IMG/VR virus record: IMGVR_UViG_3300034105_000238
Location: 1-20,697 of that record
Length of the DNA: 20,697 bases
Direction: 5' to 3' (one strand)
Source: a virus
In this document: piece after piece, positions 8,770 to 20,386 of the stretch
Layout: each line of letters opens with the position of its first letter
How positions within the stretch are numbered: the first letter of the stretch is position 1
The notes under the pieces: model-generated
Seen by the model: the letters and a program-made list of their open reading frames with translations, nothing else
Databases searched by the model: none
Told to the model about the DNA's origin: nothing
Translations under genes and position numbers: made by a program

Positions 8770-9299
8770 TGGCATATGATCCTTGGGATTGGGCAAACCA
8801 AACACAACAAACAACTCCTTTAGCTGCTCCACTATCAAACATTGTTACACCTATGCCAGCATCTAATGAACAAGGTGATCCTGGTCAAGTAATTACTTTA
8901 CCTCCTACTCAAGCCGAAAAAGATATGCAACAAATGCGTAGTATGGCTGTTAATAAAGGTACTGAAAAAGGTGCTGAGTATGCTTATGATAAATACAAAG
9001 GTATGCAAGCTGGCCCTATTGGTACTGGTGCTCCTGTAGTTGAACAAAGTGTTATGGCTTCTGCTCCAACAGTTGCTGCACCCGCAGGAACTATGGCGGG
9101 GATGGGTACAGGTGCTGCTGCTGAAGCCGCTACTGCTGCTGCTACCCAAGCTGCAACAGCTGCCCCTCTTTCTGCTACAGTTGGTGCTGCTGCTCCTGCC
9201 GCTGCTGGTGCTGCTGAAGCAGGTATGCTTGCAGGTATGGGACCAGTAGGTTGGGGCGTAGGCGCATTATTGTTAGCTAAATCAATGAATTGGATTTAA
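8769..9299 (+). CDS. Ala-rich small virion/ejection protein with hydrophobic C-terminus
   Basis: The protein has 176 residues. A polar N-terminal third (MAYDPWDWANQTQQTTPL) and a short charged helix (QAEKDMQQMRSMAVNKGTEK) lead into an extreme Ala/Gly/Met/Thr-rich region from about residue 95. The C-terminus is GMGPVGWGVGALLLAKSMNW, a glycine-zipper-like, potentially membrane-inserting segment. Similar proteins ending in G-P-x-G-W-x-x-G-x-x-x-L-A-K occur next to ejection proteins in aquatic phages. It starts on the last base of the preceding stop (TAATG). The membrane-active look fits a component of a transient ejection channel, which is inference. Its DNA has long GCT/GCA runs. Confidence 0.55.
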   Translation: MAYDPWDWANQTQQTTPLAAPLSNIVTPMPASNEQGDPGQVITLPPTQAEKDMQQMRSMAVNKGTEKGAEYAYDKYKGMQAGPIGTGAPVVEQSVMASAPTVAAPAGTMAGMGTGAAAEAATAAATQAATAAPLSATVGAAAPAAAGAAEAGMLAGMGPVGWGVGALLLAKSMNWI

Positions 9300-9301
9300 A
9301 A

Positions 9302-12300
9302 ATGGGACCATTATCTGCTAAACAACACAGAGAATATTTAAAGTTTTCTGCGCAAGAAGCCAGAGAAACAGCTAAGATGGAACGGGAAGAAGCCCGTAAA
9401 CAACAACTACATGAGATTAAACTTATAGAAGCTGCTGGTAAAGCTGGACAAACTTTAGGTCATAAAGAAGACGTTCACAAATTTAAAATGGGTACCTTAG
9501 GTGCTCCATTAAAAGCTAAAACACCTAACCCATTAGCAGGAACAGAACTATTTAAACGCGGTCAACATATGTTACCATTTCAAGTAGAAGATGCTGCTAA
9601 GGCTAGGAAAGCTGCTAAACAAAATACAGATACAGTACCTGCTATGTTAACTCCTGGCGAAGCTGTTATCCCTAAACCTGCTGCTCAAGACCCTAAAAAT
9701 AAACCTATCATTAAACGTATGGTTCAAGAAGGTAGAAAAGCTAACAGACGAGGATATGCTAATGGTACAGTTAATGTTAATGTAGATGCAGGTAGTTTAG
9801 AAAATACCGCAAGAGAGCTTGCTGATAAATATTTAGATAACGGTTATCGTGATGGCTCAATTAATATTGCTAACTCAGATGTTATTCCTAGTAGAGTACA
9901 ACAAGCTGCTGGATACAATGAGGGTACTATTCAAGTACCAGTACCATCATTAGCGTATGAGCATCCTGATGTTCCTGGATCTTCTTTTAAACACGGTACT
10001 GAAAGAGTGCCTAGCTTTAGTAGAGGTAGTTCAGCTAGCTATCATTATGAAGATGGTACCTTAGAAGTACCTACTGAAGAGATGTATGCTAAGGTAGTAG
10101 AGCAAGCTTTACCTAGTCCTATTGTTGAACAACCTCCAGTACCTGTAGTTGCTGTTGCACCAGTACAAAATGTTGTTGCTGGTCTTGATGTATCTCAAGT
10201 TGCACCTCAATCACGAACAGTAGCTGCTCCATTAAAAACTAAAAACGACTTGTATAGTGATGCATGGGTTAGAAGTAATGAAGCAGACCCTAAAGCTGGT
10301 ACATTATCTAAAAACCCAAATAGTTCTGCATTTGGTTTATATCAAATGACTGATGCTGCTTGGAAAGATGCTTATAAAATTAGTCCATCTTTAAAAGGCG
10401 AAGATATAACTAAGCCTGAAGTACAACAAGCAGCTAGAGATGCTTACAAACAATCTGTTGCTAATCAACTTAAAGCATATCGTATTGAACCTACAGAAGA
10501 AGCTATTGCTAAGGCTTGGGTTGTTGGCGCTAACGGCTATAGAAAAATCTTAAATAGTGATCCTGATGCTCCTTTAAGTTTAGACCCTAAAACAATTGCT
10601 ATTAATCCTAATTTACAAGGGTTAACTAATAAGCAATTTTTAGAAAGACCTAACCCTTATGCAAGGACACAAGTTGCTGTTGCTAAACTACCTTTGTCAC
10701 CCCGTGATATCGCTATTGCTAAACAAGATTTAGCTACTTCAACTAACCCCAGAGTTAGAGCGCAAGCTGAAGCTACTTTAAAACAAGCACAAGTACCACC
10801 TCCTACTAGAGCAAGTGTTCTTCAAGAAAGTCAACCACCTAGTGTTGAAATTAATAAATTACCAGTTTCTGAAGTTGTTCCTAAACCCAGTAGATCAGCA
10901 TCTGGTAAATTAGTAGACATGAGACCACGTGATGAAGTTGGTGAGCTGTTAGTTCCTGTACCACGTACTATGGCAGAAGCTAATCCTCCTGTTGTTATTC
11001 CTGATAATATGAGAAACTTAGAAGTTACTTCTCCAGGGTCTAGACAACAAACAATAGAAGAAGCTAATCCTCCTGTTGTTATTCCTGAAAGCATGAAAGA
11101 TCTTGAAGGCCCAGTTGATGTCTTACCAGAAGAAAAGAATAAAATTATTTCTCTCTTTACTAAAGACAATGAAGAAGCTATTAAAAACGAAGTAGAAGTT
11201 ATTGATAGGCAGCCTGATTGGGTTAATCCAGAAGAAAAGAAAACTGCGTTAGTTAAATTTATTGAAAGCATTTACGGTCCAACGGGAATGTTTAATGAAA
11301 AAGATTTAACTAGATTTGCTGTTGTTGCTGCTGGTGGATTATTAACTGGTGGTTCTGTAAACGGTTCTTTTAAATATGCTGCTCGTGATACACTACAAAC
11401 TGCTGATGCTAGACGTGCTGCTGAAGCTGCTCAAGCATCTAAAGTAGATTCAGAAAATCGAGCTTATAGACGCCAAAAGGAATTAAAAGAAATTGAATTA
11501 GGTGTTACTAATGTTAAAGAAAGACAAAAGGAAACTAAAGCTTACTTTAATAAAACAGTTGATGACTACGAAAGAGAAGGTAGATTAACTCCTGCAAATG
11601 CAACTTTGTTACGCAAAGCAATATACAATGGTAACTATAGTGCAGTTGAAAAAGCGTTAGACGATCCTGGTACTTATGGTACTGATCTCTTTAAAGCAGG
11701 TGTTCCACAAGGCGCTAAACCAGTAACTATTGTAGAAGAAGGTTACACTACAGGTAGACCTGCTTATAAAGATGAAAGTGGTAATTATACTGTATTTGAT
11801 ACTGATGAAAAAGGAATTAAAGTACCTAGAGTGATTAGCAGTAAAAATCAAAGAGAGGTAGGCGATACTACTAATATACAATCACAAAATGAAAATCGTT
11901 TTAAAGATAATCTTTTAGCTAGCCAATACTTTAGACAAGATAAAGAGACAGGTGCAACTCCTTTTGATTTATCTTCTCAAGAAGTAATTTCTCAATTAAA
12001 CGTTTGGCAACAAGAGCAAAGACGTTTAGGTTTACCAGATGATTACACTAGGTTTAGCGATCAAATAAATGATGGTTTAAACAGAGCACTTAAGTCTGGA
12101 GAAAAGAAACCTAACATTACTAAGATGTTGCATTTAGCTACTATTAATACTTCGGTATTAACTGATGAAAATAAAATGACTGTTAATAACAATCAACTTG
12201 ATTCTAAGCTTAATGGTAAATCAATTCCTACTTCTAAGATTGGTGAAATGGTTGAAGATGTCCGTAAACATAATTCTCCAAAAGAAAAATATAAGAATAG

Positions 12301-12526
12301 AGTAGATGAGTATAAAGCTCAATCAAATTCTTCTATGAAGTTTTTAGATAAAGTGTCTACAGAATATGAGCAAATGAAACAAGAAGAAGGTTTTACACCA
12401 AATGCTTTAGCTGAAAAAGCTAGAACTAAAAAGGTAGATGACAAACTAATTAATAAAATTAGAGAAGCACCTAACTCTTATTGGGCATTAATGTATTATA
12501 GAATGGCAGTGCCAATTAAAGATTAA
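9302..12526 (+). CDS. Large ejection protein with lytic transglycosylase-like domain (gp15/gp16-type)
   Basis: The protein has 1074 residues from the ATG at 9302; a TTG at 9290 would add four residues but would overlap the previous gene. The N-terminal ~60 residues are charged helix. Residues about 111-124 carry TVPAMLTPGEAVIP, a phrase typical of large phage tail/virion proteins, followed by five degenerate Y-x-x-G-[TS] units (residues 152-255). Residues ~317-430 look like a soluble lytic transglycosylase domain: probable catalytic Glu327, then SSAFGLYQMTDAAW (341-354) and a helical remainder with AWVVGANGY. The central part contains a 30-bp duplicated phrase (EANPPVVIP). The rest is helical and charged. 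It probably opens a hole in the peptidoglycan during DNA injection. In T7 this domain is on gp16; here it is on the preceding protein. Confidence 0.7.
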   Translation: MGPLSAKQHREYLKFSAQEARETAKMEREEARKQQLHEIKLIEAAGKAGQTLGHKEDVHKFKMGTLGAPLKAKTPNPLAGTELFKRGQHMLPFQVEDAAKARKAAKQNTDTVPAMLTPGEAVIPKPAAQDPKNKPIIKRMVQEGRKANRRGYANGTVNVNVDAGSLENTARELADKYLDNGYRDGSINIANSDVIPSRVQQAAGYNEGTIQVPVPSLAYEHPDVPGSSFKHGTERVPSFSRGSSASYHYEDGTLEVPTEEMYAKVVEQALPSPIVEQPPVPVVAVAPVQNVVAGLDVSQVAPQSRTVAAPLKTKNDLYSDAWVRSNEADPKAGTLSKNPNSSAFGLYQMTDAAWKDAYKISPSLKGEDITKPEVQQAARDAYKQSVANQLKAYRIEPTEEAIAKAWVVGANGYRKILNSDPDAPLSLDPKTIAINPNLQGLTNKQFLERPNPYARTQVAVAKLPLSPRDIAIAKQDLATSTNPRVRAQAEATLKQAQVPPPTRASVLQESQPPSVEINKLPVSEVVPKPSRSASGKLVDMRPRDEVGELLVPVPRTMAEANPPVVIPDNMRNLEVTSPGSRQQTIEEANPPVVIPESMKDLEGPVDVLPEEKNKIISLFTKDNEEAIKNEVEVIDRQPDWVNPEEKKTALVKFIESIYGPTGMFNEKDLTRFAVVAAGGLLTGGSVNGSFKYAARDTLQTADARRAAEAAQASKVDSENRAYRRQKELKEIELGVTNVKERQKETKAYFNKTVDDYEREGRLTPANATLLRKAIYNGNYSAVEKALDDPGTYGTDLFKAGVPQGAKPVTIVEEGYTTGRPAYKDESGNYTVFDTDEKGIKVPRVISSKNQREVGDTTNIQSQNENRFKDNLLASQYFRQDKETGATPFDLSSQEVISQLNVWQQEQRRLGLPDDYTRFSDQINDGLNRALKSGEKKPNITKMLHLATINTSVLTDENKMTVNNNQLDSKLNGKSIPTSKIGEMVEDVRKHNSPKEKYKNRVDEYKAQSNSSMKFLDKVSTEYEQMKQEEGFTPNALAEKARTKKVDDKLINKIREAPNSYWALMYYRMAVPIKD
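10975..11088 (+). repeat. 30-bp direct repeat pair in the ejection-protein gene
   Basis: A 30-base stretch starting AGAAGCTAATCCTCCTGTTG occurs at 10975-11004 and 11059-11088, 84 bases apart (28 codons, in frame). It encodes EANPPVVIP twice, first followed by DNMRNLE and then by ESMKDLE, so the unit is a 28-residue tandem repeat with diverging edges in a Pro-rich linker. Confidence 0.9.
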
Positions 12527-12538
12527 TAAGGATAACAA

Positions 12539-15500
12539 ATGGCTAACATACCTTTATCGATTGCTGAAAAAGAATTTACTTTATCAGATGAAAACGGAAA
12601 AGAATTACCTGTAACATTACATGATGCAGATACCGCTTATACAAAGAAGGGTGTTAGACAACGTTTTGTAGGCATTGATGCTGCAGAAACCCCTAAGATA
12701 ACCCCCGTAGGGGGGTTTTCTGCAGGGTCTACGCTAGGTATTGCTCAGACAGAAGCCACTGCTCAAATTATTCGTGACTACGGATTTAATAAAAGAGTTG
12801 TTGTAGGCAAAGAAAGTTTTGGTGGAGATTTAATTGATCTTGAGAATGCACAAGGGGAAAGACTAAGTTCTTTTTTAACTAAAAATAGAATAGTACAACC
12901 TAGTGCAAACACAAGTGACGCAGATATGGTTAAACGTTCATGGCAAATGTTTCAAGATGCTATGAATACTTCTGATGTAGAAACTCCAATTCAAAAATCA
13001 AGACGTATTGTTGACTCTGTATTATCAGAAGGAACTATTGTAGGTAAGCCACAAGCTGATACTATTGAACAGTACCAAGATTACAAGTCAGCAACAAGCA
13101 ATTTAGGTTTAGCACAACAAGAAGCAAACATTCAAGCATTAAAAACTAGATTGTTATCCCCTAAAATTAATGAATTACAAAGACAAGAATTAACTCGTAA
13201 GTTATCTTCTGCTATGGATTTTTACCAAGCAAACCTTAATGCACCAAAAGATCTTTATAGAAGCTCCCTTGAAGGGGTTAACTTTAAAGGTCCATATGGT
13301 GTGCAAGGTGAAATGGAAAGATCATGGGACATTGGTATGCTTAATGTATCTAATTCTGCTGCTAATATTCTTGACTACATTGGTAACGTAACAGGCTCTA
13401 AAGAGCTTGAGTATGATGCTAAAGGTATGCTTAAGAAAAATGAAAGAGCAAAAAGATTAGTTGATACTAGGGCTGGTGATGTAGATATAACTGGTGGTAC
13501 TACCACTAGTCTTGATGATGTTGAAAAAGATTTCTCTAAAATATTTAGATTTATTGGTTCATCAACATTGCAATATGGCCCTCAAATGGGTGTAATGATT
13601 GCTGGATCTGTTACAGGTGGTGCTGCTGGTTTTGCTTTAGGTGGCCCTACTGGTGCTGCTGTTGGTTCTAGTATTGTACCTATGGCAATGGGTATTGGTG
13701 ATGTATATGGTGAAATGCCTGATGACGAAAAAGACCCATTAGCTGCTGCTGCAATTGGTAGTGTTGTTGGTATTATAGATAAACTTGGTTTACCAAAAGG
13801 TGCTATTAGAGGTGTAGACTTATTAACTAAAGCAGGTATTAGTAGTACTGCAACAAAGATTGCTGCTGCTAAAGGAATATCTGTTGATGAAGCTACTAAG
13901 CTATTACACAAAGAAGTATTACAATTAGGTAAAGACTATGCTATAGTTGCTAAGAGTGTTGCTGTAAATCAACTTAAAGGAAAAGAAAACTTAGCTAATT
14001 TGTTATTACAAATAACTAAAAATTCAGGTAAAGAATCTGCAACAGAAGCATTACAAGAAGCAATTCAATATGCTGGTGTTAGGGGTACAACTTCACTTGA
14101 CTTTGATTATAATGAATTGTATAATAGAACTAAAGAGGCTGCTGTAGTTGGTGGTTTATTAGGTGCTCAAGTTGGTACTCCAAGTGCTATGATGGACAGG
14201 TCTAATTTTAATTACCAGCTTAATATGCTTGCAGGAGTTGAAACAAAACCTTTAACTTCAAATGCTATGATGGAACAAGAAGAAATTAAACGTCATGGTA
14301 AAAAATTAAATGATGTAGAGTTAGCTGCTAAATTACGTAGCTATGCTGTTCCAGGTAGCACACCCCTTCCTTATTTAGATTTGTTAATTACTCCAGGAAC
14401 TAAACCAATTAGTCTTGCAGGAAGTTTTAAAGATCTTTTAATTAATGGTGGTTTGTTTTCTTCTGTTAGAGACAATGTATTAAGCCCATTTCTTAAATTC
14501 CAAGGTGGTCGGGAGATAGCTGGTTTGTTTGATGCAAGCTCTGTTAGGGGTGTTTATTCAGGCATGTCTGCTTTTAAACGTATACACAATATAGCTAACA
14601 GTGTTATGAATTCTTTTATGGTTGACTCTGATAAAAGAAGTTTATTTGGAACTACTAATAACAAAGATATAGGAACAAGGGTTCTTAACTCTTACACAAG
14701 TAATACAAATGACCCTGCATCTTTAGCTTATCGTCAAACATTAGACCAAATGGGTGAAGACTTAGCTAATCAATTAGATGACTTAGGAATAAATACTGGG
14801 TGGTCTTCTATTGATATTAGAAAACCAGATTATTTTTTAAAGAATCAATTAGTAGATCCTAATTTAGTTAGAGCTAATGTAACTGAGTTTATAGATACTA
14901 TTGAAAACAATTACAAGTCAAAAGGCATTACTACTTTAGGAACAATAAATAAAACTTATTTAAAAGATTTAGCAGACAGAATAACTGACAATTTAACCTA
15001 CAAAGAAATGAAAGAGTTAGCTGACCTAGGTATGTTAGATAATCCTGTATTAAATAAATTTAGATCTAAAGATGTAGAGCATAATGCTGTTAGAATGATT
15101 GAGATGATTTCAAGATCAGCAGTTAAGAACACTATCTTTGGTGCTAATGGGGAAGTAGTAGGTAATGGCATTAAAAAGATGTTAGATAGTAATGAGATTA
15201 CTGCAGAAGAAGCTTCAGAATTAGCGATGCATGTTAAAGAATTGATTGCTGGTTTTGATGGTACTCTTAATAGACCTAAGTCTCCTTTAATTAAAGGTGC
15301 AACAGAGAACTTAACTTTTGCTACTACAATGGTATACATGGATACATCTTTGTTTGCAAACTTATCTGAAATAGTTTATGGTGCTTTAGGATTATCTAAA
15401 GCAAACATTGTTAAATACTTTGGTTTAATTGCTAAAGAATTTGCTTCAGATGTTGCTGCTAAGTTTACTCAAGTAGGTAGTAAAATTTCAGGGGGTTTAA

Positions 15501-16513
15501 TTCCTTCTATAGAAGAAAAACAATTATCTAAAAATATATCTTTGTTACAATTAACAGGTCAATCTGGTAAAATGAATGACATTGCGTTTAATGTTGGTGC
15601 TAATATTACTAGCCAATCTAAACGTAATATGAGCAAATTAATGTTCAAGTTTAACTTAGTAGAGTCAGCAACTAATGCTGCTAGAGCTGCAAGAGGTGCT
15701 ATTGCTTGTGATGAAATTAATAATATGATTAGTATTATTGCAGAGTCACCTAACAATAACGATGCAACTAGATGGGCAAGAGATAGGTTAAGCTACTATA
15801 GAATGGACCCAGATGAGCTAGTTAATATTTATAATAGTGTAGGTGCTATATCATTAGATAAATTAGAATCAATATCTCCAGGTGATCCTATATTTAATAA
15901 GTTATCTGAACAATTAAACAATGGTATCACAAACTTTATTGATGAATTCTCTTCAAGACCAGAGCCAGGATCTACTGCTAAGATATTTGATGACCATAGG
16001 TTTGCTTTAATAACTCAATTCCAAAAGTTTACTTGGCATTTTACATCTAACGTTATCCCTCAATTATGGGGTATGTATATTAAACGTGGTAAGCCTGAGT
16101 ATACTTACTCTGCTTTCTCTTTAATGATTCTAGCCTTTGCAACAGCATATGCAGGATTATATCTTAAGAGTATGCTTAGAGGTGAAGAAGAAGAAGATGA
16201 TGAAAAGAAACTAACTAAGAGATTAGGACAAGCTGCTAGTTACGCTTCTAGCTCTGCACAAATAGATATGCTTAATAAAATAAGCAGTGCAACAGAAACA
16301 AGAGCTGATGGGTCTCTCAAGACTAACCCATTCAAAACCTTATTAAGTCAATCACCATCACTAAACTTAGGTTATAGTTCTGGTAAAGATGCTTATAAGA
16401 TCGCTACCGAGGAAGGCCAAGCCGATTTAAAGGCAAAGTCTAACTTGATCCGTAGAGTTCCTGTGTTTGGGGAAATCCCAGCAATTAGGAACATGTATGA
16501 AAAGGAAAAATAA
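12539..16513 (+). CDS. Giant ejection protein (gp16-like) with N-terminal staphylococcal-nuclease-like domain
   Basis: The protein has 1324 residues. AAGGA at 12528-12532 supports the start. Residues ~25-125 resemble the staphylococcal/thermonuclease (SNase) fold: D29-A-D31-T32 matches D-G-D-T, and R42-x4-D47-x2-E50 matches SNase R35, D40 and E43 in exact spacing. ESFGGDLIDLEN (92-103) aligns with the D-x-x-G-R region but has Gly where the second catalytic Arg should be. A Gly/Ala-rich hydrophobic stretch at about 350-390 (VMIAGSVTGGAAGFALGGPT), ESATEALQEAIQYAG at about 499-513, and a C-terminal membrane helix at about 1190-1212 (before an acidic EEEEDDEKK) suit a protein that crosses or lines membranes, like T7 gp16. 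The remainder is unassigned. Nuclease activity is not established. Confidence 0.65.
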   Translation: MANIPLSIAEKEFTLSDENGKELPVTLHDADTAYTKKGVRQRFVGIDAAETPKITPVGGFSAGSTLGIAQTEATAQIIRDYGFNKRVVVGKESFGGDLIDLENAQGERLSSFLTKNRIVQPSANTSDADMVKRSWQMFQDAMNTSDVETPIQKSRRIVDSVLSEGTIVGKPQADTIEQYQDYKSATSNLGLAQQEANIQALKTRLLSPKINELQRQELTRKLSSAMDFYQANLNAPKDLYRSSLEGVNFKGPYGVQGEMERSWDIGMLNVSNSAANILDYIGNVTGSKELEYDAKGMLKKNERAKRLVDTRAGDVDITGGTTTSLDDVEKDFSKIFRFIGSSTLQYGPQMGVMIAGSVTGGAAGFALGGPTGAAVGSSIVPMAMGIGDVYGEMPDDEKDPLAAAAIGSVVGIIDKLGLPKGAIRGVDLLTKAGISSTATKIAAAKGISVDEATKLLHKEVLQLGKDYAIVAKSVAVNQLKGKENLANLLLQITKNSGKESATEALQEAIQYAGVRGTTSLDFDYNELYNRTKEAAVVGGLLGAQVGTPSAMMDRSNFNYQLNMLAGVETKPLTSNAMMEQEEIKRHGKKLNDVELAAKLRSYAVPGSTPLPYLDLLITPGTKPISLAGSFKDLLINGGLFSSVRDNVLSPFLKFQGGREIAGLFDASSVRGVYSGMSAFKRIHNIANSVMNSFMVDSDKRSLFGTTNNKDIGTRVLNSYTSNTNDPASLAYRQTLDQMGEDLANQLDDLGINTGWSSIDIRKPDYFLKNQLVDPNLVRANVTEFIDTIENNYKSKGITTLGTINKTYLKDLADRITDNLTYKEMKELADLGMLDNPVLNKFRSKDVEHNAVRMIEMISRSAVKNTIFGANGEVVGNGIKKMLDSNEITAEEASELAMHVKELIAGFDGTLNRPKSPLIKGATENLTFATTMVYMDTSLFANLSEIVYGALGLSKANIVKYFGLIAKEFASDVAAKFTQVGSKISGGLIPSIEEKQLSKNISLLQLTGQSGKMNDIAFNVGANITSQSKRNMSKLMFKFNLVESATNAARAARGAIACDEINNMISIIAESPNNNDATRWARDRLSYYRMDPDELVNIYNSVGAISLDKLESISPGDPIFNKLSEQLNNGITNFIDEFSSRPEPGSTAKIFDDHRFALITQFQKFTWHFTSNVIPQLWGMYIKRGKPEYTYSAFSLMILAFATAYAGLYLKSMLRGEEEEDDEKKLTKRLGQAASYASSSAQIDMLNKISSATETRADGSLKTNPFKTLLSQSPSLNLGYSSGKDAYKIATEEGQADLKAKSNLIRRVPVFGEIPAIRNMYEKEK
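12681..12725 (+). repeat. 45-bp GC-rich palindrome with terminator-like hairpin inside the coding region
   Basis: Outer arms CTGCAGAAA (12681-12689) and TTTCTGCAG (12717-12725) are perfect inverse complements. Between them AACCCCC (12700-12706) pairs with GGGGGTT (12711-12717) around a GTAG loop, and TTTT follows. An alternative pairing uses CCCCTA (12690-12695) with TAGGGG (12708-12713). The codons include Glu50 of the nuclease-like domain. The hairpin has the form of an intrinsic terminator, with a short T run. Confidence 0.8.
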
Positions 16514-19500
16514 ATGGCATTATCTAAGTTTAGACCTTCAGCAGGTCCACTATCAGGCGCTAATGTAGAACCTGCTTTAGTACCAGAGTCAGTTCAAGAA
16601 CAAATTGAAACTAATCCTATACCTCAATCAATGAGGTTAGTCCAGCCAGGCATTGGTGCTACTGCTCTTAATAGAGCGCCATTAGAACCAGGAGCAGTAC
16701 CAAGATCAGAGTTAACTCAATTACCAGAGTATACTGTACAAGATGTAGCAACTGATAATGAGTTTGGTCCTACAGATTTAACTGCGGAAACTATTCCTGT
16801 AGATGCTACACAACAAATGGTTGATGTAGAAGAACAAGCTTTTAAATATGCTGAACCTACTATTGCACCTGACTTCTCTAGTCCTGATAACGCTTATGCA
16901 ACTATGCAAACAGCTATTGAGGATTTAGGTCCAACGTACCAAGCCTTTAATGTAGCAGATCAAAAGAGTATTAAGTTTAAAGATGATGAAGGTTCAGAAG
17001 CTATTGCTGTATCAAACTATGCAAATGCTTTTGCAAAACCCTTACTTAACGAAGAAGGTATTTGGGCTAATGAAACTTTAGCTAACATGACAGAGAGTAG
17101 TCTAGGTATTAATGCTCAGAATGCTAATGCTCTTGGTGGAGCTTTAATGCTTACTGCTGTTAGCGCATTAAGTGATGTTCAGAAAAGAAAATACAAACAA
17201 TTTATTGAAGATAAAAAATCTGGAATGATTGAAGGGGAATATGATACTTACATTGGTAAGAACTTATCAGCTTCTTCTGAAGATATAGGTGCTGACTTCC
17301 AAGAGGTAGTTGCTGCAAGTAACAATGCACCTACAGAACAACCTGTTATGCAAGGGTTTGTTGCAGATATCCAAGATAAGTTAGGTAAAAACTTTTCTCA
17401 GCCTAATACTCCTGGCGGTAGATATGCACCCAGAAATGTACCAAGAGAAGTAGCTCAGGCGCATGCTTATCAGATGTACAAAGATGGTTACTATGTTATT
17501 AAAAAAGATAAGTATGGAACTTACTATCCTATTCTTACTAGCAAAGGTGAAGAGTTAGTATCTGATGTACGCCATATGGCATCTGTATATGATGTAAAAT
17601 TACGTCATATGAATATTAATGAACCATTAATTCTTTCTCAAAGTAACCCTGCTGTTAACAATGCTTTAGCGGGTAAAGGTTCTCAATACATTTCTAAAGA
17701 TGGTAGAGTCTTAGATGGTAAGATGAACATTATTGATGCAGCTATTAATATGCTTAATGCCGTACCAGTAAGAATTAACGTTGGAGCAGCTAGCGTTCTT
17801 GCTCAAATGGCAAGTGATGCTTTTCCAATAAACCCTGAAACAGGTTTAGAAATGGGAACCGCAAGGTTCACTGAGAATGGTGCTTATATTCAAGATAACA
17901 GCACAATGTTTTCTAATGCTCCTTTTAATTATAGCAATGAAACAATGGTAATACCTAATGCTTATTCTAATAGTGTGTTTGCTAAAACAATGGCAGACTT
18001 ATCTTTAGATAAAGTAAAAGAAAAAGTAAAAGAATTAGTTGAAGATAATGTATCTCCAGGAGAGATAAGTGCTATTGTATCTGACATTAATGAAAAGAAA
18101 ATAACTCAGGTGTACAAACATATTAACCAATATATTGGTGGTAATGTATCAAGAGGTAACAGATTTAATTTATTAAAGCGATCTGACTCTACTAATCGTA
18201 TGTTTCCAATGGCAACAGATATTAACGTAACTAACCATTCAGGAACTATTAGACCTGCTACAGAGTTTGGTGTTAAGTATTCTGCAACTGTACCTATGGG
18301 TATGGGTAACACAGTACTACGTGCAAAGGATTTAAGTAAACGAGTGTTTGTTGATGCTGTAAAAGGTAAGACAGGTATTAGTTTAGGTGTAGCTGTTAAT
18401 GATGCTTTGTGGTCATTACCTAAATCAGATCGAGTATTGCTAGATGCTTATTACCAGATAGCAAAAATAGCTGATGACTTTGGATTGTTAAAAATAGATG
18501 GTAACAGACCTACACCACATGATTTTATTATGGCACTTGACAGAGACACTTTTGAAAAGGTAGCTTCATATGGTAGCGTTTTTAAATCTTGGACTGAAGG
18601 AAATCTTCCTACAAGTAATAGTGTTGCTAACTTACCTCCAGCATTTAACAACGAACTAAGTAAATTCTTTGCTAAGAAAGAATGGGGACCAAGAATGTCT
18701 AATGCTATGATGGCTAAAGATATTCTAGATGCTTCTAAGAATGGTGGTGTTGTTCAATTAGCTGCTACTATTGAGACAGATGCTTCTCAATCTAATGCTG
18801 CTATTATTTCTTTGTTAATTGGTGACTTAAAAATTGCTAACATTTTAGGTATGTACCTTGGTCCTGATGAAGCGTTTGCTCAAGACAGAGAGACATACAA
18901 AGACCTTCGTGGATTAGTAACATCTAGCTTAGATGAAGATATTGATTTAACTATGACTGGTCCTGATGAGCAAATCAAAAAGGCAGCTATAAGTAAATTC
19001 TTAAATGAAGCTCGTGTTATTCATGGAAGTGCTTTTGATAAGATGTATGCAAGAGGTATTGTTGTTGCTGGTTTGTATGGTAAACATGCTGAGTATATGT
19101 TTACTGAAGTTGAAAACATGTTAGCATCTATTGGTTTAAGTGATAAGCTAGACAAAGTAGAATCATTGTATGACTCTAGACAAGAAATGTTAGAAGATGT
19201 TTCATCTATATATGCAACATCTATGAAGAAACATTTAGCTAATCTTCAAGGCTGGCAAAAAATAACTTCATCTATTGCTTCTTTAAAAGCAGCATTTAAT
19301 GGTTCTACAGAAGTAAAATCTTTTGGTAACACAACTGTTGAACTTGGAACTAGTTATGCTACCCTATTAGATGACGAATCTAATACTGTTAAAAAGATTT
19401 TAGGATTACCTGAAGAACTAGGTTCTATGTCTGGTATGGCTAACAACCTAAGTGCTACAGGTGATGTTCAAAAACCTTTAGCAGACATTCGTTCTATGAA

Positions 19501-20341
19501 AGCTAGATTAGAAGAAGTTAATTTAAATATTGATGATGTATTAGATCAGATATATACTTATGCTTTTCCAGGAGATAAAGCACGTAAGGCAATGCCTGTT
19601 GTGTTGATTCAATCAGGTGATGCATACGAGATGGCTTCATCTTATATTTATGCTAATCAGAAAAATAAAGATGATGAGCCTTTGAATATGTTAGGTATTC
19701 ATGATGCTCAGATTACAGCACCTGGTTCTACATTGTTAATGTATAACGCTTACAATAATATTTCTACTTATATATTAGCAAAAGAAGGTAGACCTCTATT
19801 ACAATCTTTAAAAGAATCTTATAATGAAGATTATAAGAATGCTATGGCTGACATTAAAAAAGCTGGTAAAGCAAACATAGGCACTCTTGGTAAATACAAG
19901 TCAATGGGTGGTTACTTTGATAAGATATATGTTGGATCTCACTTTATTCCTAGAGATGTAAAGAGAGGTAGACCTGATTTAAACCCAGAGTATACTAAAG
20001 TATCTAAAGAATACAATGACAAAGTATTAGATTTAGCTATGACATTTGGATGGAAACCTCCAACTAAACGTAATAAAGATGATAGATCAAACCTAATGGT
20101 TACTCCAAGAGAGTTTGAATTACTATCTAGACTACTTGAAATACATAATGGATGGGCTGCAAAAGGAGAATCTACTTTCCCAGAGTTAGATGCTATTGCC
20201 TCTAAATATAAACAAAAAACTAAAATGAATTTCAATTATGCAAATCGTAATCTAAAGAAATATAATAATTTCTTAGGTGCAAATGATGTAATAGTTGATC
20301 AAATGAAATCTAATAAAAACTTTATTGTTAACTCTAAGTAA
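16514..20341 (+). CDS. Single-subunit (T7/N4-type) RNA polymerase, probably virion-packaged
   Basis: The protein has 1275 residues and starts directly after the stop of the ejection protein, with AAAGGA at 16501-16506. Four motifs of phage single-subunit RNA polymerases appear in order. First, D558-S-T-N561-R562 matches D-x-x-G-R. Second, motif A TDASQSNAAIISLLIGD has catalytic Asp756 (T7 D-G-S-C-S-G). Third, motif B is K843-x3-R847-x7-Y855-G856, against T7 R627-x3-K631-x7-Y639-G640. Fourth, motif C GIHDAQITAPGS has His1063 and catalytic Asp1064 (T7 H-D-S). A-to-B spacing is 91 residues (94 in T7). A family A DNA polymerase fits less well: no ELR after motif A, no FG in motif B, no HDE. The first ~150 residues are Pro-rich and flexible. 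N4 packages such an enzyme; packaging here is inferred from location. Confidence 0.72.
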   Translation: MALSKFRPSAGPLSGANVEPALVPESVQEQIETNPIPQSMRLVQPGIGATALNRAPLEPGAVPRSELTQLPEYTVQDVATDNEFGPTDLTAETIPVDATQQMVDVEEQAFKYAEPTIAPDFSSPDNAYATMQTAIEDLGPTYQAFNVADQKSIKFKDDEGSEAIAVSNYANAFAKPLLNEEGIWANETLANMTESSLGINAQNANALGGALMLTAVSALSDVQKRKYKQFIEDKKSGMIEGEYDTYIGKNLSASSEDIGADFQEVVAASNNAPTEQPVMQGFVADIQDKLGKNFSQPNTPGGRYAPRNVPREVAQAHAYQMYKDGYYVIKKDKYGTYYPILTSKGEELVSDVRHMASVYDVKLRHMNINEPLILSQSNPAVNNALAGKGSQYISKDGRVLDGKMNIIDAAINMLNAVPVRINVGAASVLAQMASDAFPINPETGLEMGTARFTENGAYIQDNSTMFSNAPFNYSNETMVIPNAYSNSVFAKTMADLSLDKVKEKVKELVEDNVSPGEISAIVSDINEKKITQVYKHINQYIGGNVSRGNRFNLLKRSDSTNRMFPMATDINVTNHSGTIRPATEFGVKYSATVPMGMGNTVLRAKDLSKRVFVDAVKGKTGISLGVAVNDALWSLPKSDRVLLDAYYQIAKIADDFGLLKIDGNRPTPHDFIMALDRDTFEKVASYGSVFKSWTEGNLPTSNSVANLPPAFNNELSKFFAKKEWGPRMSNAMMAKDILDASKNGGVVQLAATIETDASQSNAAIISLLIGDLKIANILGMYLGPDEAFAQDRETYKDLRGLVTSSLDEDIDLTMTGPDEQIKKAAISKFLNEARVIHGSAFDKMYARGIVVAGLYGKHAEYMFTEVENMLASIGLSDKLDKVESLYDSRQEMLEDVSSIYATSMKKHLANLQGWQKITSSIASLKAAFNGSTEVKSFGNTTVELGTSYATLLDDESNTVKKILGLPEELGSMSGMANNLSATGDVQKPLADIRSMKARLEEVNLNIDDVLDQIYTYAFPGDKARKAMPVVLIQSGDAYEMASSYIYANQKNKDDEPLNMLGIHDAQITAPGSTLLMYNAYNNISTYILAKEGRPLLQSLKESYNEDYKNAMADIKKAGKANIGTLGKYKSMGGYFDKIYVGSHFIPRDVKRGRPDLNPEYTKVSKEYNDKVLDLAMTFGWKPPTKRNKDDRSNLMVTPREFELLSRLLEIHNGWAAKGESTFPELDAIASKYKQKTKMNFNYANRNLKKYNNFLGANDVIVDQMKSNKNFIVNSK

Positions 20342-20350
20342 ACAAATTAA

Positions 20351-20386
20351 AAACCCCTACTAGGAATAATCCTAATAGGGGTTTTT
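20351..20386 (+). terminator. Strong bidirectional intrinsic terminator
   Basis: AAACCCCTACTAGGA (20351-20365), an ATAA loop (20366-20369) and TCCTAATAGGGGTTT (20370-20384) form a near-perfect stem with one internal mismatch, followed by a T run and flanked by A on the other side. It lies ten bases after the + strand operon and directly at the stop of the convergent - strand gene, so it should stop transcription from both sides. Each arm contains CCTANTAGG. Confidence 0.92.

Follow-up and report, generated by a model that had tools for sequence, protein, structure and literature searches.

The window, by which we mean the whole 20,697-base stretch analysed (positions 1 to 20,697 of virus record IMGVR_UViG_3300034105_000238), carries three consecutive giant genes in its right half, all on the plus strand. 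The first (9290-12526) encodes a 1078-aa protein that is probably a murein-hydrolase-bearing ejection protein, as judged from the SLT and GH108 domains of its homologues. The second (12539-16513, with an ATG start) encodes a 1324-aa giant protein of virion or ejection type, P0001, whose translation starts MANIPLSIAEKEFTLSDENGKELPVTLHDADTAYTKKGVRQRFVGIDAAETPKITPVGGFSAGSTLGIAQ and which carries the staphylococcal-nuclease (SNase) domain described here. The third (16514-20341) encodes a 1275-aa protein, the third of the probable ejection set by homology and by gene order in Roseobacter phage CRP-7; it is homologous to the CRP-7 protein encoded 3' of gp34 (E 5e-50), and the giant proteins follow the same order in that phage. 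CRP-7 is a short-tailed podovirus whose describing paper makes no mention of a nuclease (PMC6918029). Just past the third giant gene, at 20349-20386, lies a 17-pair hairpin with T-runs that is likely the terminator of the block.

Residues 247-416 of the 1324-aa protein match PHROG 6958, 'virion structural protein' (E 4.3e-11), and through the relative L023 the core of the protein reaches a virion structural protein of Pseudomonas phage KPP25 (E 9e-6), to which its C-terminal part is related, and more weakly the virion protein of phage tf (E 0.03). A structural-block gene of KPP25 (L053:3772-4944) is labelled 'photosystem II D1', which is implausible there and probably a mis-annotation. Along most of its sequence the upstream giant protein has homologous counterparts in L001 (61%) and L019 (34%). 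Its homologues carry recognizable cell-wall enzymes, an SLT transglycosylase domain in the L001 copy (E 5.5e-9) and GH108 in those of L019 (E 3.6e-16) and L021 (E 4.3e-15), so that among close relatives this segment is exchanged, SLT versus GH108, while the remainder stays homologous. No family match was obtained for the corresponding segment of the window's own protein (about residues 320-430, GLYQ-type) or of the L022 protein.

Podoviral ejection sets typically have murein hydrolases in giant virion proteins, as in T7 gp16, and the known roles of ejection proteins in short-tailed phages are cell-wall cutting and channel forming. In relatives the murein hydrolase of the neighbouring giant protein is interchangeable, which supports reading the 1324-aa protein as an ejection protein. 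A profile search of PDB sequences found no match to the solved T7-type ejection proteins, a class that diverges fast. The features expected of such a protein are present: it is a giant encoded in the structural block, its gene adjoins that of a murein-hydrolase virion protein, and it has homology to virion proteins. From these sequence relationships we consider it probably an injected podoviral ejection-type virion protein of this marine phage. The proposal in the preliminary description that the nuclease-like domain heads a giant ejection protein is thus supported indirectly by the virion-protein PHROG, the virion homologues and the adjoining giant protein.

The SNase-fold domain spans approximately residues 11-122 (12569-12904, plus strand), as delimited by an AlphaFold2 model, VIA-align and hhalign; the preliminary description had located it at 12611-12910, and the true span is slightly wider on the 5' side. 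The motif region of the 12539-16513 translation reads ...VTLHDADTAYTKKGVRQRFVGIDAAETPK... and within it D29-A30-D31-T32 (12623-12634) corresponds, by invariance and by alignment to DGDT, to the Ca2+ site D19-G20-D21-T22 of SNase. The family-invariant R42 (12662-12664) aligns with the first catalytic arginine, R35, and D47-A-A-E50 (12677-12688) corresponds to D40 and E43, E50 being invariant and D47 giving way to Asn only in L021 and L022. All equivalents of the Ca2+ ligands D21, D40 and E43, with D19/T22, are therefore there, and D-x-D-T is followed by R-x4-D-x2-E at the exact spacing that had been reported. Shuffling the 1324-aa protein 20000 times never produced the strict motif, D[GA]DT-x(5-25)-R-x2-G-x-D-x2-E, and produced a looser version 13 times.

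At the position of the second catalytic arginine, R87 of SNase, the window carries Gly96 (GGA, 12824-12826), which profile-profile comparison aligns with the arginine of YGR, as the preliminary description had supposed. The domain has a net charge of -1 and a pI of 5.8, not strongly DNA-binding values, and genuine phage SNases are often acidic too, so that net charge does not discriminate between a DNA-binding and an inert domain. Within the coding region of the domain, at 12702-12714, lies a strong terminator-like hairpin (CCCCC-GTA-GGGGG followed by GTTTT; -16.7 kcal/mol, z -3.4); as L001 lacks it owing to the codon change P56K, the hairpin is probably incidental.

The window domain alone has no meaningful match in Pfam, PHROGs, NCBIfam, PADLOC or PDB sequences and hence does not reach the Pfam gathering score for PF00565; its homology to SNases is visible only through relatives and profiles. 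We aligned 12 family members and compared the alignment by hhalign with eight genuine SNases (five from bacterial phages, two from haloviruses and one from a Bacillus plasmid), which gave a probability of 97.2 and an E-value, for this one single comparison, of 3.2e-11. The best of 20 column-shuffled controls reached E 0.064 and the reversed alignment 0.11, and with the catalytic columns masked E was still 5.9e-4. In the aligned columns DADT falls on DGDT, the R, D and E of the SNases are matched by R42, D47 and E50, and Tyr-Gly-Arg is matched by Phe-Gly-Gly96. Among the homologues, the L023 domain matches PF00565 best (E 0.0088, or 1.3e-4 in a one-genome search), its score of 16.9 bits, or 17.7 in the genome search, lying below the cut-off of 21, and residues 37-149 of CRP-7 gp34 match the thermonuclease NucI model (E 0.0095). 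Searched as a profile, the domain alignment retrieved chance matches only from the PDB sequences. With the Pfam model, no second, free SNase was detected in the whole records of ten related viruses, some of them fragments, the sole match being the L023 copy below the cut-off.

The AlphaFold2 model of the window domain, built on 12 sequences, has a mean pLDDT of 79.1 and the element order E-E-E-E-H-E-E-H. When it was compared with the PDB by Foldseek, the best 14 matches were SND1/Tudor-SN and S. nuclease (E from 0.019, TM up to about 0.49). VIA-align gave a best Z of 8.3, to S. nuclease, over 106 residues at an rmsd of 3.8, and its best 50 matches were all S. nuclease (Z 7.8-8.3). The Arg-intact domain of L023, modelled separately, gave a Foldseek E of 1.5e-4 with all 50 matches listed being SNase, and a VIA-align Z of 9.1. 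The preliminary description had held that a model lacking the OB-fold nuclease core would speak against its assignment; the core was predicted, with SNases as the top matches, and on these models we take the SNase OB fold of the domain as established by prediction. The alignment to SNase structures implies that the Asp/Arg/Glu set would cluster in space.

In a viral structure library the window model was matched best by an entry exactly as long as CRP-7 gp34, 1368 aa (E 2.7e-10); nuclease homologues from phages and algal viruses ranked next. The BFVD entry A7KUR9_2 (965 aa) also matches the window model (E 0.021). PHROG 8809, a family of 2317 positions and of unknown function, gives weak matches to the domains of several relatives (E 0.03-0.11); its positions of about 1103-1205 weakly match the SNase domains of the CRP-7 group, including L002:19902-20459, the N-terminus of CRP-7 gp34. 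PHROG 8809 and A7KUR9_2 may be other giant phage proteins bearing an SNase domain.

A chance resemblance, in which a few motif residues happen to sit in an unrelated small beta domain, is highly improbable. It could draw on the silence of every family library toward the window sequence and on a TM-score to SNase of only about 0.45-0.48. Against it stand the profile-profile E-value, which survives masking of the catalytic columns, the choice of SNase as best fold for two separate models, and the matches of homologues to SNase or thermonuclease models across the whole domain. On the combined evidence of profiles and predicted structures, the window domain is a member of the SNase fold superfamily by descent, and the earlier designation of an SNase-like domain is upheld.

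Relatives of the 1324-aa protein were found in L001 (94%), L019 and L064 (about 60%), L025 (53%), L021, L022, L023, L026, L036, the CRP-7 group (L002 and L005-L009) and several fragments. The domain heads every relative whose N-terminus is present, amounting to 14 distinct sequences. The second arginine is kept in 12 of these, within DPYGR in the CRP-7 group and L026, YGR in L025 and L036, FGR in L023, YKR in L019 and L064, and GTR with a one-residue insertion in L021 and L022; glycine is found in the window and its 94% sister L001 only. Since the arginine is missing in this pair alone, we regard its loss as recent and lineage-specific. The tree pairs the window with L001 and nests the two beside L019 and L025, both Arg-bearing, as is L064, so that a single loss on the stem of the pair is the simplest account. 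L021 (4023-4430) and L022 (4744-5151) show a separate, second departure from the canonical active site, with Asn where SNase has D40.

Invariant in the 12-row alignments are D29, D31, T32, R42 and E50, plus G58, G63, K91 and G106, and the homologues that share the invariant catalytic positions are mostly only 25-45% identical. Between the window and L001, a single sequence pair, dN/dS is 0.174 for the domain and 0.112 for the remainder of the protein; the two differ at 12 sites within residues 1-130, all of them outside the catalytic positions. As far as sequence comparison tells, the domain is under purifying selection after the loss of the arginine and is not decaying freely. Next to Gly96 the window/L001 pair showed no basic residue of its own that might compensate for the loss, and a scan of genome contigs found no prophage copies. 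The SNase motif was not found in the distant virion homologues of Pseudomonas phages tf and KPP25, so that either the marine group gained the domain at the N-terminus or the others lost it.

In its fold, element order, D-x-D-T and R-x4-D-x2-E the window domain resembles staphylococcal nuclease/thermonuclease (PF00565), whose second arginine the relatives keep. It differs from PF00565 SNases in having Gly in place of that arginine, in falling below Pfam recognition and in a family-specific conserved stretch at about residues 51-64, TPKITPVGGFSAGS, and, unlike free or secreted SNase enzymes, it forms the N-terminus of a 1324-aa virion protein. CRP-7 gp34 (QBQ72827.1), annotated 'hypothetical protein' in GenBank, is a homologue along most of the sequence (about 27-30% identity); it likewise has an N-terminal SNase domain and the same giant proteins on either side, but its active site is complete, including DPYGR. 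The repeats of SND1/Tudor-SN, at the top of the Foldseek list, are also SNase folds with altered active sites, and show that such folds can serve without canonical catalysis; they belong, however, to a eukaryotic multidomain RNA-binding protein in an unrelated setting. T7-type internal virion proteins, tf gp51 and KPP25 ORF088 share with the window a giant virion protein, a murein-hydrolase-bearing partner and patches of core homology; the SNase motif, though, is missing from the homologues in tf and KPP25. In the literature searched, mostly without subscription journals, no precedent was found for an SNase or thermonuclease joined to ejection or internal virion proteins; an SNase domain heading a podoviral ejection-type protein is a combination apparently unreported there.

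In SNase, replacing either catalytic arginine lowers the rate by several orders of magnitude. Arg35 and Arg87 both act in catalysis by polarising the phosphate, and it is from Arg87 that the leaving oxygen is proposed to receive its proton (PMC8436206). The first of the two is present in the window domain as R42 and the second was looked for and is absent, and hence the domain is not a canonical SNase enzyme. Since the Ca2+ site and R42 are retained, the simplest view of the domain in this phage is that it probably descends from a nuclease and now serves as a Ca2+-dependent module for phosphate binding or structure. The fuller explanation that we favour, to which we give an even chance, is that this is a true SNase domain whose ancestor had a full active site, that it is packaged and expelled with the protein that bears it, and that in this phage hydrolysis is crippled while the domain is kept for phosphate binding or assembly. 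Counterpoints to it are that the window domain matches no SNase model in Pfam, PHROG or NCBIfam, that its best Foldseek E is 0.019, and that another residue, for example the invariant K91, may act in place of the arginine.

That last point leads to a rather unlikely alternative, namely that the domain is still an active though altered nuclease, relying on another basic residue or working weakly, and that it nicks host DNA, superinfecting DNA or the ends of the phage DNA. All Ca2+ ligands and the first arginine are intact, K91 lies five residues before the lost arginine, the domain is under purifying selection, and the whole arginine pair persists in 12 of the 14 homologous N-termini, all of which would fit such an enzyme. 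The catalytic part of both arginines, the cost of replacing either and the lack of a compensating basic residue specific to the pair near the site argue the other way. Unlikely, too, is a purely structural head without useful Ca2+ or DNA binding, in which the motif would be an ancestral remnant under folding constraint. Two lineages have each lost one catalytic residue, the arginine in the window and L001 and Asp47, now Asn, in L021 and L022, and the domain's dN/dS is slightly above that of the rest of the protein, as this would predict; the invariance of D29, D31, T32, R42 and E50 at such low identity nevertheless exceeds folding needs, and the tf and KPP25 virion homologues manage without the domain. 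The preliminary description had offered attack on host DNA, binding of the incoming genome and a dead structural module as possible functions; for this phage the first is weakened, and the last is weakened by the purifying selection.

Returning to the reading of a crippled nuclease retained for binding or assembly, we propose that the SNase domain was already present in the ancestor shared by the CRP-7-type ejection proteins, an ancestor that very probably had a full active site. As a family, these phages would probably inject a Ca2+-dependent nuclease or a DNA-binding domain. The 1324-aa protein would be a virion component that, in the manner of T7-type internal proteins, probably leaves the particle together with the genome, so that the domain would enter the periplasm or cytoplasm as infection starts. 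In most relatives it would probably be a working Ca2+-dependent nuclease, while in this phage and its 94% sister the change of the second arginine to glycine would probably have crippled hydrolysis. The Ca2+- and phosphate-binding residues and the fold appear to be selected for, most likely for binding DNA phosphates or for assembly of the ejection machinery. More tentatively, and with less than an even chance, a widespread group of marine podoviruses would inject a Ca2+-dependent SNase on its ejection apparatus and at least one lineage would have turned it into a dead DNA-binding module; as part of this suggestion, the injected SNase may be active in most members, for example against the DNA of the host or of competing phages before phage genes are expressed.

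The family offers natural Arg-intact and Arg-lost pairs, which makes the choice between cutting and mere holding of DNA directly testable; among its members the isolate CRP-7, where the protein is labelled 'hypothetical protein', has the intact form. That a nuclease domain fronts an ejection protein suggests that proteins delivered by injection may have a DNA-directed role, too, from the very outset of infection, and it raises the testable idea that some phages inject a nuclease together with their DNA.
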